Of a stretch of 64,000 bases of DNA, positions 6,457 through 64,000 are shown piece after piece (position 1 is the stretch's first letter; the number at the start of each line of letters is the position of its first letter). The translations under genes and the position numbers were made by a program. Location of the stretch: NCBI RefSeq assembly GCF_011752045.1, contig NZ_JAAKXW010000002.1, positions 62,001 through 126,000 on the forward strand, in the 5' to 3' direction. Origin of the DNA: Microbacterium hydrocarbonoxydans (GTDB lineage Bacteria > Actinomycetota > Actinomycetes > Actinomycetales > Microbacteriaceae). The notes below the pieces were generated by a model. That model was not told the DNA's origin. It was given only the letters and a program-made list of their open reading frames with translations, and searched no databases.

Positions 6457-6554
6457 GTTCACAACTCCTCAGGACTGCGCCCGCTCCCTCGCACCCACCC
6501 CGTGGTTCCGCGGCGCCGAAGTGGTCGCCCCCGCGTTTCTGAGGAGTTGCGCAC
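6457..6554. repeat. 98-bp palindromic element, copy A
   Basis: The left end GTTCACAACTCCTCAG (6457-6472) and right end CTGAGGAGTTGCGCAC (6539-6554) are inverted repeats matching at 14 of 16 positions. The element is exactly 98 bp, as are copies at 29925 and 63755, and shares a central CG-rich core around 6500-6516. It lies between the convergent symporter and antiporter genes, where it could also act as a bidirectional terminator. Confidence 0.75.
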
Positions 6555-29924: not shown

Positions 29925-30022
29925 GTTCACAACTCCTCAGATTCCGCCTGCGGGCGCATCTCGAAGGGCGGGATCACGCGGCACGACACGGGAGCAGCGT
30001 GCGGTCTTGAGGAATTCTGCAC
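29925..30022. repeat. 98-bp palindromic element, copy B
   Basis: The left end GTTCACAACTCCTCAG (29925-29940) is identical to copy A; the right end TTGAGGAATTCTGCAC (30007-30022) matches 12 of 16 positions. Total length is again 98 bp, and the core aligns without gaps with copies A and C. It lies between convergent uxaC and PL6-2. Confidence 0.7.
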
Positions 30023-60774: not shown

Positions 60775-60799
60775 ATCGCGTAAATGACGACTGAATCAG

Positions 60800-60828
60800 T
60801 TGCGCAAGCACGGTATACCTGTCAATAT
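60800..60828 (+). promoter_or_regulatory. lrp promoter, leaderless start
   Basis: TTGCGC (60800-60805) and CAATAT (60823-60828) are 17 bp apart; the start point would fall at or near the ATG at 60835, which has no ribosome-binding site. The -35 lies within the palindrome TTGCGCAA. Confidence 0.5.
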
Positions 60829-60834
60829 CGACAC

Positions 60835-61302
60835 ATGAGCGCCACACCGAAGCATCCCGCCCTGGATGACGTGTCGAAGAAGATCGTCGAGCTCCTCCAG
60901 GAGGACGGCCGACGCCCGTACGCCGAGATCGGCCGCGCCGTCGGACTCAGCGAGGCGGCTGCCCGTCAGCGCGTGCAGCGGATGACCGAAGCCGGGATCA
61001 TCCAGATCGTCGCCGTGACCGACCCGATGCAGCTCGGCTTCCACCGTATGTCGATGATCGGCATCCGGGTGGACAGCGACCCGCGGGCGATCGCACAGGA
61101 GCTGACGAAGATCACCGAGCTCGCCTATGTGGTCGTCACCCTCGGCACCTTCGACATCCTCGTCGAGGCCGTGTGCGAGAGCGACGAGGACCTCATCGAC
61201 CTCATCGCGACGCGCATCCGCACGATCCCCGGCGTCACCCACACCGAGAGCCTGCTCTACGCCGGCCTCTACAAGGACCTCTACAACTGGGGCACGCGCT
61301 GA
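60835..61302 (+). CDS. Lrp/AsnC-family regulator
   Basis: A 155-residue regulator. The N-terminal winged HTH covers about 8-55 (ALDDVSKKIVELLQEDGRRPY, GLSEAAARQRVQRMTEAGII) and the C-terminal RAM effector/oligomerisation domain about 70-150 (VVTLGTFDILVEAVCESDEDLIDLI). It overlaps the FAD oxidoreductase by 1 nt (TGATG). It probably senses an amino acid or amine and controls its own three-gene operon. ATG 60835 is taken over an upstream start at 60784 because of the promoter position. Confidence 0.92.
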   Translation: MSATPKHPALDDVSKKIVELLQEDGRRPYAEIGRAVGLSEAAARQRVQRMTEAGIIQIVAVTDPMQLGFHRMSMIGIRVDSDPRAIAQELTKITELAYVVVTLGTFDILVEAVCESDEDLIDLIATRIRTIPGVTHTESLLYAGLYKDLYNWGTR

Positions 61303-62705
61303 TGGGCACCACCGTCTTCGAACGCCGGCGTCCCACCGACGCCGTCATCGACGAGTCGCTGCGCGGCACCGCCTTCGGGGTGTTCTGGCTCGATGACGTC
61401 GAGCGCCCCCGGCATCCGTCGCTCTCCGGCCACGTCACCGCAGATCTCGTCGTGGTCGGCGGCGGCTACACCGGCCTGTGGACCGCGATCCGGGCGAAGG
61501 AGCGCCACCCGGAGCGCCGCGTCGTGCTGCTGGAGGCGTCGCGGGTCTCCTGGGCGGCATCCGGCCGCAACGGCGGGTTCTGCGAGGCGAGCCTCACCCA
61601 CGGTCACGAGAACGGCCTGAACCGCTGGCCAGAGGAGATCGACCGGCTCGAGGCGATGGGGCTGGAGAACCTCGACGGGATCGAGACCGCGGTCGGCCGC
61701 TACGACATGAAGGCCGACTTCGAGCGCACCGGCCAGCTCAGCGTCGCCGTGGAGCCGCACCAGGTCGAGTGGTACCGCGACGAGCCCGGATTCCTCGACC
61801 GCGAGGCCGTGCAGGCGGAGGTGCACTCGGACACCTTCCTCGCCGGCTCCTGGGATCGCGAGGGCTGCGCCATGGTGCACCCGGCGAAGCTCGGCATGGA
61901 GCTGGCCCGCGTCGCGCTCGACCTGGGCGTCGAGATCCATGAGCACTCCCTCGTCCGCGGCGTCGAGGGCGACGGCTCCGGCCCGATCACGGTCGTCACC
62001 GAGGGCGGCCGGGTGACCGCGGATGCCGTCGCCCTCGGCACGAACGTGTTCCCGTCCCTGCTCAAGCGCAACCGCCTGATGACCGTGCCGGTGTACGACT
62101 ACGTGCTGATGACGGAGCCGCTGAGCTCCGAGCAGCTGGCCTCGATCGGCTGGTCGAACCGGCAGGGCCTCGCCGACAGCGCGAACCAGTTCCACTACTA
62201 CCGGCTCACCGCCGACGACCGCATCCTGTTCGGCGGCTACGACGCGATCTACCACTTCGGCGGCAAGGTCCGCCCGGAGTACGAGGACCGCATGGCGAGC
62301 CACCGCAGGCTCGCCTCGCACTTCTTCACGACGTTCCCGCAGCTCGAGGGCCTGCGCTTCACGCACCGCTGGGCCGGCGCGATCGACTCGTCGAGCCGCT
62401 TCTGCGCCTTCTTCGGCACCGCCCGCAAGGGGCGCGTCGCCTACGCCACCGGGTTCACCGGGCTCGGCGTCGGCGCCGCACGCTTCGCCGCCGACGTCAT
62501 GCTCGACAAGCTGTCGGGCGTCGAGACCGAGCGCACCGAGCTGCGGATGGTGCGCGAGAAGCCGATCCCCTTCCCGCCCGAGCCCGCCGCCGCCATCGGC
62601 ATCAACCTCGTGCGCGCGGCGATGAACCAGGCCGATCACAACGAGGGAAAGCGCAACCTCTTCCTCAAGGCGCTCGACGCCGTCGGCATGGGGTTCGACT
62701 CGTGA
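61302..62705 (+). CDS. FAD-dependent amine/amino acid oxidoreductase (DAO family)
   Basis: A 467-residue DAO-type flavoenzyme. GGGYTG at 53-58 starts the FAD-binding Rossmann fold; SWAASGRNGGFCEASL follows, as in PuuB-like gamma-glutamylputrescine oxidases and related enzymes, and YATGFTGLGVGAARFAADVMLD is the C-terminal FAD-contact stretch. It would oxidise a secondary or primary amine, releasing aldehyde and H2O2. It lies between an Lrp regulator and a cupin protein with overlaps at both ends. The substrate is unknown; a gamma-glutamyl-amine would tie it to the ligase at 1434. Confidence 0.85.
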   Translation: MGTTVFERRRPTDAVIDESLRGTAFGVFWLDDVERPRHPSLSGHVTADLVVVGGGYTGLWTAIRAKERHPERRVVLLEASRVSWAASGRNGGFCEASLTHGHENGLNRWPEEIDRLEAMGLENLDGIETAVGRYDMKADFERTGQLSVAVEPHQVEWYRDEPGFLDREAVQAEVHSDTFLAGSWDREGCAMVHPAKLGMELARVALDLGVEIHEHSLVRGVEGDGSGPITVVTEGGRVTADAVALGTNVFPSLLKRNRLMTVPVYDYVLMTEPLSSEQLASIGWSNRQGLADSANQFHYYRLTADDRILFGGYDAIYHFGGKVRPEYEDRMASHRRLASHFFTTFPQLEGLRFTHRWAGAIDSSSRFCAFFGTARKGRVAYATGFTGLGVGAARFAADVMLDKLSGVETERTELRMVREKPIPFPPEPAAAIGINLVRAAMNQADHNEGKRNLFLKALDAVGMGFDS

Positions 62706-63050: not shown

Positions 63051-63986
63051 TCAGTCCTCGCGCGCCGTGACCTCGGCATGCGGCATCCGCTCGCGCATCA
63101 CGCGGATCGCCTCGGGGTTGTCGTCGACGAGCACCGCGTCGCGCCCGAGCGCCGAAGCCACTGCTCCGGTCGTCCCCGAACCCGCGAACAGGTCGAGCAC
63201 GCGGTCGCCAGGCCGGCTCGACGCCGTCACGATGCGGCGCAGGATGCCCTCGGGCTTCTGGGTCGGGTACCCCGTCTTCTCGCGGCCCGTCGTCGGCACG
63301 ATGGTGTGCCACCACACGTCGGTGGGCAGCTTGCCGCGTTCGGCCTTCTCGGCCGTCACCAGCCCGGGGGCCATGTACGGCTCGCGGTCGACCGCCTCGG
63401 AGTCGAAGAAGTAGGAGCGGGGGTTCTTCACGTACACCAGGATCGTGTCGTGCTTGGTCGGCCAGCGCCGCCGCGACTTCGCCCCGTAGTCGTACGCCCA
63501 GATCAGCTCGTTGAGGAAGCAGTCCCTGCCGAAGACGGCATCCAGCATCACCTTGGCGTAGTGCGCCTCGCGGTAGTCGAGGTGCAGGTACAGCGTGCCG
63601 TCGTCGGCGAGCAGCCGCCAGGCCTCCTCCAGCCGCGGCATGAGGAACGACCCGTAGTCGTCGAACCGGTCGTCGTAGGCGCGCAGCATCCCGCGCACCC
63701 GCTCGTACCGATGCCCGTGGAAGCCGTGCCGGATCTCGATCTCCGCGGCGGGCTGTTCAGAACTCCGCAGATCCGCGGGCGTGCTCGCCCGGCCATAGCG
63801 GGAATCCGCGGGCCGTGCGCTCTCAGCCTCGGATTCCTGAGGAGTTGTGGACGTCCGCCGCGCGGTGACCACCTGACGCCCCTGCGTGCGGCCTGTGTTG
63901 AACGGCGGGTCCAGGTACACCAGGGCGAAGGATGCCGCGGGCAGGGTCGCGGCGACAGCCAGGTTGTCGCCCTCGATGACGGTCAC
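63051..63986 (-). CDS. Site-specific DNA methyltransferase (N6-adenine/N4-cytosine type)
   Basis: A 311-residue methyltransferase, with catalytic motif IV as YLDPPFN (24-30) before the AdoMet motif VLDLFAGSGTTG near the C-terminus, the order of the beta class. YLHLDYREAHYAKVMLD, NELIWAYDYG and GYPTQKPEGILRRIV match the family. GTG 63986 gives the usual N-terminus, but the frame stays open to the window edge, so the true start may be further right. Residues about 46-78 are encoded by a 98-bp repeat element with A/T-ending codons unlike the rest. No restriction partner is seen. Confidence 0.88.
   Translation of the reverse strand: MTVIEGDNLAVAATLPAASFALVYLDPPFNTGRTQGRQVVTARRTSTTPQESEAESARPADSRYGRASTPADLRSSEQPAAEIEIRHGFHGHRYERVRGMLRAYDDRFDDYGSFLMPRLEEAWRLLADDGTLYLHLDYREAHYAKVMLDAVFGRDCFLNELIWAYDYGAKSRRRWPTKHDTILVYVKNPRSYFFDSEAVDREPYMAPGLVTAEKAERGKLPTDVWWHTIVPTTGREKTGYPTQKPEGILRRIVTASSRPGDRVLDLFAGSGTTGAVASALGRDAVLVDDNPEAIRVMRERMPHAEVTARED
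63755..63852. repeat. 98-bp palindromic element, copy C, inside the methyltransferase gene
   Basis: The left end GTTCAGAACTCCGCAG (63755-63770) and right end CTGAGGAGTTGTGGAC (63837-63852) match the ends of copies A and B. Length is exactly 98 bp and the core aligns without gaps. It is read in frame as part of the methyltransferase. Confidence 0.75.
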
Positions 63987-64000
63987 CGCGCCGGGCGCCG

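Follow-up and report, generated by a model that had tools for sequence, protein, structure and literature searches.

It was found that a 98-nt palindromic element is translated inside a DNA methyltransferase gene of Microbacterium hydrocarbonoxydans, and that the element belongs to a dispersed family of paired, inverted arms. The element (copy C) occupies positions 63755-63852 on the minus strand of the window, which is the whole 64,000-nt stretch of DNA analyzed here. Its host gene, encoding an N6/N4 DNA methyltransferase, covers 63051-63998 on the same strand, and the 5′ end of the gene lies outside the window. The translation of the element is settled, and a concerted change of the arms within genomes is well supported. 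I lean, without great confidence, toward the reading that copy C belongs, as an old in-frame copy, to a family of paired-arm sites, which would have arisen from a mobile palindrome and would be read by a binder with drifting specificity.

On the minus strand, copy C begins with GTCCACAAC and ends with GTTCTGAAC, the ends being inverted. The 5′ arm is GTCCACAACTCCTCAGGAA (63834-63852, minus strand) with the tetranucleotide CTCA, while the 3′ arm (63755-63773, minus strand) reads GTTCAGAACTCCGCAGATC on the opposite strand with the tetranucleotide CGCA. An earlier sequence-only reading had given the boundaries exactly to the base. It had also claimed an in-frame insert at residues 46-78 with A/T-ending codons (ACA ACT CCT, TCT GAA); these codons are present, and by arithmetic on a 311-residue numbering of the host frame the element corresponds to the same residues, with the peptide TSTTPQES...ADLRSSE in the host reading frame. 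The host frame matches Pfam N6_N4_Mtase (PF01555; E 5.1e-41), and its PDB relatives include M.RsrI (E 7.9e-25) and CcrM. The extra loop begins directly after DPPF, which I take to be motif IV, and the sequence-only reading was right to locate a palindromic element in the coding sequence of the loop after that motif. In the structure alignment with M.RsrI, the similarity is weak up to query residue 34 and strong from residue 104. The M.RsrI chain passes from residue 69 to 71, and thus the whole loop, including the element, is extra relative to M.RsrI. Residues 35-96 have a pLDDT below 50 in the predicted structure (mean 65.9); the loop is unfolded in this prediction, in which other loops are also poor and the alignment had 36 rows. 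Beside the methyltransferase gene, the window region 60784-62705 has frames that, by eye, resemble an AsnC/Lrp regulator and an oxidoreductase.

Two other 98-nt copies are present in the window, copy A (6457-6554; locus L010) and copy B (29925-30022; locus L034), each lying between two convergent genes. At least 14 copies of the family were found in this Microbacterium genome: 13 partnered elements in its loci and a 14th within its RlmG-like gene. The sequence CACAACTCCTCAG was found at 12 places in the 3.65-Mb genome, and the reversed control gave no match. When up to three mismatches were allowed, an 18-mer from one arm had three matches in the window including itself (0.04 expected from shuffles). 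A 20-mer from the other arm had its own site as the sole window match. The reversed control of the full pair pattern had 0 matches in each of the 295 genomes searched. No common functional theme was seen by eye among the genes flanking 11 copies of this genome, which counts against the binder reading.

The arm is about 19 nt in length (GTTCACAAYTC-NNNN-gAA), and each site has two arms in inverted orientation. The outer ends are mostly 85-87 or 97-99 nt apart, the two classes being separated by about one helical turn, while the interiors differ. In 12 genomes, 122 of 127 anchored arms had a partner with up to three mismatches within the 45-170 nt scanned, and 113 of these 122 pairs were 85-87 nt (97 units) or 97-99 nt (16 units) in length. 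Of the remaining nine, six result from extra tandem arms before an 86-nt unit, and the rest are units of 93, 106, and 107 nt in genome G125. In other genera of the Microbacteriaceae the units are 85-87 and 96-98 nt, with additional units of 107-108 nt in G116; single exceptions of 75 nt and 77 nt (G127) were also found. Strict patterns undercount diverged copies. Since the length steps are about 11-12 bp, the arms are suggested to face the same side of the helix. It is the ends that are conserved and not the interiors: among 667 interior pairs from the same genome, the sole conspicuous ones are a tandem duplication in G185 and a single pair in G142. Ten 98-nt units share a weak common centre, about CCGCG..TTCCGCGG.

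Is the translated copy common in the genus? The methyltransferase gene is present in 271 of 295 Microbacterium genomes. I compared 138 distinct methyltransferases, a chosen sample composed of the best 80 named loci, the best 30 genus hits, 40 more genus hits, and one G283 locus, and leaving out L100, L109, L116, and L393, which could not be parsed. A recognisable element (up to seven mismatches) was found in 64 of them, with lengths of 86 nt (n=35), 98 nt (n=28), and 74 nt (n=1), and thus the insertion is not recent. When the length filter was removed, 67 methyltransferases passed, three of them with other lengths (93, 104, and 116). All 50 distinct copies with up to five arm mismatches are 86 nt (26) or 98 nt (24) in length and share one codon phase, in a search that allowed 60-150 nt. 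The sequence-only reading had remarked that 98 is not a multiple of three, which is true; both lengths of the well-kept orthologues are 2 modulo 3. The other 74 methyltransferases have no passing element. Thus, the site is dispensable in this gene, which counts against a binder. In a tree of loop-free protein sequences, the element is spread across one large clade of 80 rows, where it is missing here and there, and across seven deeper Microbacterium rows. At least 23 changes are required, and 57 of 131 inner branches were weak. An ancient insertion followed by repeated loss and decay fits this distribution.

The element is absent from M. testaceum and its neighbours and from the other genera parsed. 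The homologue comparison proposed in the sequence-only reading gave support, as some relatives in other genera have a short loop and no element: the distance from DPPF to YxR is 35 residues in L111, L115, and L120 versus 71 here. Loop length alone turned out to be a poor argument, since M. testaceum and its relatives have a loop of 65-72 residues with an unrelated sequence. The contrary case named in that reading, a single ancestral sequence conserved at similar length in every homologue, was not found.

The four bases after GTTCACAAYTC are variable, namely AGCA, AGGA, CTCA, CGGA, CGCA, AGTC, AGCC, and rarer forms; the arm tetranucleotides of 15 genomes were taken by eye. Agreement of the tetranucleotide was 0.625 between different positions of the same genome (771 pairs), 0.221 between different genomes at the same position (139 pairs), and 0.185 where neither was shared (6467 pairs), the positions being site groups p1-p12 with shared flanks of at least 500 nt, which is not proof of the same base. 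The tetranucleotide follows the genome rather than the site. For example, one shared intergenic position has CTCA in G000 and G142, AGGA in G059 and G208, AGCA in G283, and CGCA/CTCA in G185. The methyltransferase arms of 24 genomes match the dialect of their own genome at 0.557, versus 0.223 in shuffles (highest 0.482; 0 of 20,000 as high). The shuffle tests used here ignore how closely the genomes are related. Against a binder, the methyltransferase copy departs from its own genome's dialect with both arms in G142 and G210 and with one arm in G229 and G249. Among 62 distinct methyltransferase elements, the two arms match each other in 37 (shuffled mean 8.8, maximum 19). Outside the methyltransferase they match in 143 of 193 elements from 27 genomes, where shuffling the 3′ arms within genomes gave 127 on average and at most 142 in 5000 trials. 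In 15 of 21 genomes, single-base steps connect the dialects that occur together; the random mean was 6.9, and 2 of 5000 random sets reached the observed value. In six of the 21 genomes, G125 and G281 among them, distant dialects coexist, which again counts against a binder. In the methyltransferase, the 3′ arm differs from the family at position 6, which is C or G in 41 of 62 elements. This change turns a TGT cysteine codon into TCT and may be a sign of pressure at the protein level.

The sites are also biased in their chromosomal position. With parS as the origin marker, the origin half contains 150 of the 160 sites counted in ten genomes, and 147 are located in the nearest 40 percent (about 0.7 Mb); paired arms were counted once, G148 entered with 23 of its 24 matches, and several chromosome lengths were rounded. 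These genomes have 6-24 sites each. Part of this bias could also arise if the region is stable and old sites survive there more readily. When 109 loci were grouped by shared flanks, 56 positions were obtained, and 26 of them are common to at least two genomes. The strict pair was found in 51 of 295 Microbacterium genomes, which speaks against a binder. In a sample of 349 genomes from the Microbacteriaceae it was present in 15, belonging to seven of 85 genus codes. Carriage by phages was also considered and was rejected, as the exact pair pattern had no match in a viral collection.

If a protein binds both arms, this would account for the phasing of the lengths, for the match between the arms, for the dialect, and for the persistence of arms within genes; on these grounds I infer such a protein. 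In the proposed mechanism, a sequence-specific DNA-binding protein would bridge both arms on one face of the helix, and its specificity would drift stepwise between lineages. Selection would make the sites follow the binder, even via amino-acid changes (FTTPQE, FTTQHE, FTIQQE) in the loop predicted to be unfolded. The sites probably arose as a small mobile palindrome. More tentatively, and as somewhat less likely than not, I propose that this may be a new chromosomal site system of Microbacteriaceae: pairs of 19-nt arms concentrated near the origin, spaced in steps of about one turn, and read by a putative protein of drifting specificity, with the sites being rewritten even within proteins. 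The parS, matS, and Noc sites are limited numbers of short inverted sites with a regional chromosome bias, each kind being read by one protein. The regional bias is similar here. In contrast, those sites are single short palindromes, while here two separate arms stand 86 or 98 bp apart, the core drifts, and the binder is putative.

An ordinary selfish MITE resembling the Rickettsia palindromic elements would be one alternative: an old jump into a harmless frame, decay since then, and arms alike only by descent. The short unit with terminal inverted repeats is a MITE feature, and translation in several unrelated genes, the absence or decay in many lineages, and the Rickettsia precedent agree with it. 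The G142 pair is identical at 77 of 86 positions across the unit but at only 21 of 40 and 15 of 40 in the 40-nt flanks; the resemblance extends beyond the 86-nt unit for about 12 nt on one side and then stops. Since this pair of copies shares the whole unit and not most of the flanks, a mobile origin is suggested. I consider this alternative unlikely, however, because the arms at shared sites go with the genome's dialect and the lengths are quantised despite the differing interiors. Besides, RAYT-type Y1 transposases (PF01797) were found in none of 22 genomes, while five of 14 control genomes were positive, and no target-site duplication was seen by eye in the flanks examined. A clean empty site was not found. 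In L340 of another genus, no transposase was recognised by eye in the gene between neighbouring elements. The sequence-only reading had proposed that a selfish palindrome became part of an enzyme. The element is indeed in the coding sequence, but the word selfish is not established, since positions are common to several species while the arms change in concert across the genome. A merely decaying selfish insert would not show such a change.

If the active copy of each lineage repeatedly re-inserted into the same hot spots, or converted them, this would produce the dialects without selection at each site. I regard this as quite unlikely, although it does account for the dialects. A different translated palindrome of about 100 nt was found in the methyltransferase loop of L067 (from 2897), L072 (from 3171), and L086 (from 3177), with nested inverted repeats such as GCCGAGAC...GTCTCGGC and, in L072, outer arms such as GCGAGACTTCAA...TTGAAGTCTCGC; thus, the loop may be a hot spot. 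A similar palindrome lies outside the methyltransferase gene in L082 (near 118). Also in favour of re-insertion, when methyltransferase interiors were compared with other elements (7104 comparisons), the top three results all point to one intergenic copy of G283. In several orthologous pairs with switched arms, the interiors are at the background level (G143 with G281, G001, and G241: 39, 40, and 42 of 60 identical), which cannot decide. However, both arms changed while the interior was kept in two clear cases. The methyltransferase copies of the tree neighbours G143 (AGGA/AGGA) and G283 (AGCA/AGCA) are identical at 51 of 60 interior positions, and an intergenic site with AGCA/AGGA in G283 and CGGA/CGGA in G241 is identical at 50 of 60. 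Unrelated interiors compared by the same method have a median identity of 0.60 and a 95th percentile of 0.72. Whole replacement is unlikely in these two cases, and the same codon phase and place in all 50 well-preserved copies also speak against re-insertion or conversion.

An RNA hairpin, either a bidirectional terminator or an mRNA structure, whose arms are kept paired via compensatory change or template-switch correction of imperfect palindromes, is improbable. The RNA folds are more stable than shuffled sequences (z -3.9 for copy C and -1.5 to -8.8 for six others). Moreover, with genes called by a crude, purpose-built caller, convergent genes flank 47 of the 95 intergenic copies that were classified, versus six of 22 large gaps of the window (p 0.09) and three of 53 in a locus control that is biased by design. 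A hairpin explains the matching arms in one element but not one dialect per genome, and leaves the length steps of about 11-12 nt and the origin bias unexplained. No Rfam family was found in the window at the gathering threshold, and a known RNA family was rejected on this basis.

Translation of the element is not limited to the methyltransferase. According to the same crude gene caller, 14 of 113 elements lie within called genes, in four genes. The arm is translated as FTT or STT in the DNA methyltransferase (two loci of this set), as VHNS in an ABC-F ATPase just after the second P-loop (four genomes), as SQL in an RlmG/RsmC-like methyltransferase before the catalytic domain (seven genomes), and as VHNS in CydD (one genome). 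As for these names, the first two RlmG/RsmC models and the ABC-F models matched below cut-offs, and CydD above its cut-off. Thus, the host genes read the arm in three different reading frames. The RlmG-like protein has matches in 43 of 60 family genomes (one per genus code), and in 40 of the 42 other than the window's genome the match splits into two pieces around the insert. The linker between two conserved motifs has 17-23 residues in 21 loci of other genera and 34 and 44 in two, versus 45-56 residues in eight copies from Microbacterium; this comparison leaves out six unparsed loci. Ancestral protein sequence or chance resemblance, although all parsed homologues of the DNA methyltransferase have some loop of variable length here, is already refuted by the genome-wide family, as both arms match interspersed copies with a zero reversed-pattern control, the codon phase varies between host genes, and those 40 other genera lack a match across the RlmG-like insert.

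No published account of the family or of the arm sequences was found among the open-licence papers listed. The comparison with Rickettsia palindromic elements made in the sequence-only reading holds as an analogy, the present family being translated in at least four genes. According to a review (PMC10969869), those elements are about 150 bp in length and are translated in frame within many unrelated genes. Similarly, a palindromic element is in frame here in the methyltransferase, ABC-F, RlmG/RsmC-like, and CydD genes. In contrast, the unit here is 86-98 nt with an interior that is not conserved and quantised lengths, the arms have a genome-wide dialect, and most copies were found to be intergenic and near the origin. 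REPINs, as described in PMC3116915, have two inverted conserved ends, and the length of the spacer rather than its sequence seems to matter; compensatory changes were noted, and co-evolution with a trans-acting protein was proposed. REPs may number many hundreds per genome, and REPINs are called randomly distributed. The present sites share the inverted conserved ends and the set spacer length. They differ in the lack of Y1/RAYT transposases, the low number of sites per genome, the sites shared between species, the origin bias, and the translated copies. RAYT/REPIN membership was rejected from the Y1 result, the search having covered the Y1 family only. In Nematomorpha mitochondria, inverted repeats lie inside functional protein genes, with protein and palindrome preserved together (PMC6649704). 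Those repeats are perfect ones in conserved protein regions and not a dispersed family with dialects.

If the binder reading is true, it would show that fixed DNA sites evolve in concert strongly enough to rewrite residues of three kinds of protein, namely a DNA methyltransferase, an ABC-F ATPase, and an rRNA-methyltransferase-like protein. The series of dialects would then document in nature the way in which specificity might shift jointly in a DNA-binding protein and in its sites. The bias toward the origin would point to an undescribed chromosome factor.

Some variants of the architecture were also found. Extra single arms precede complete elements in tandem, 17-24 bp apart, in L236, L306, and L230. 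In L279 and L291 (G208 and G185), two divergent genes are separated by a gap that coincides with the element, and repeats of the ATGTTGACGT kind lie within the element. In one other genus (code g51; L335, L337-L346, L348, L351, and L352), AGGA-type elements seem to have a second, inner inverted repeat of about CGGCGYGTC/GACRCGCCG behind the outer arms, which by eye is absent from the CTGC-type elements.
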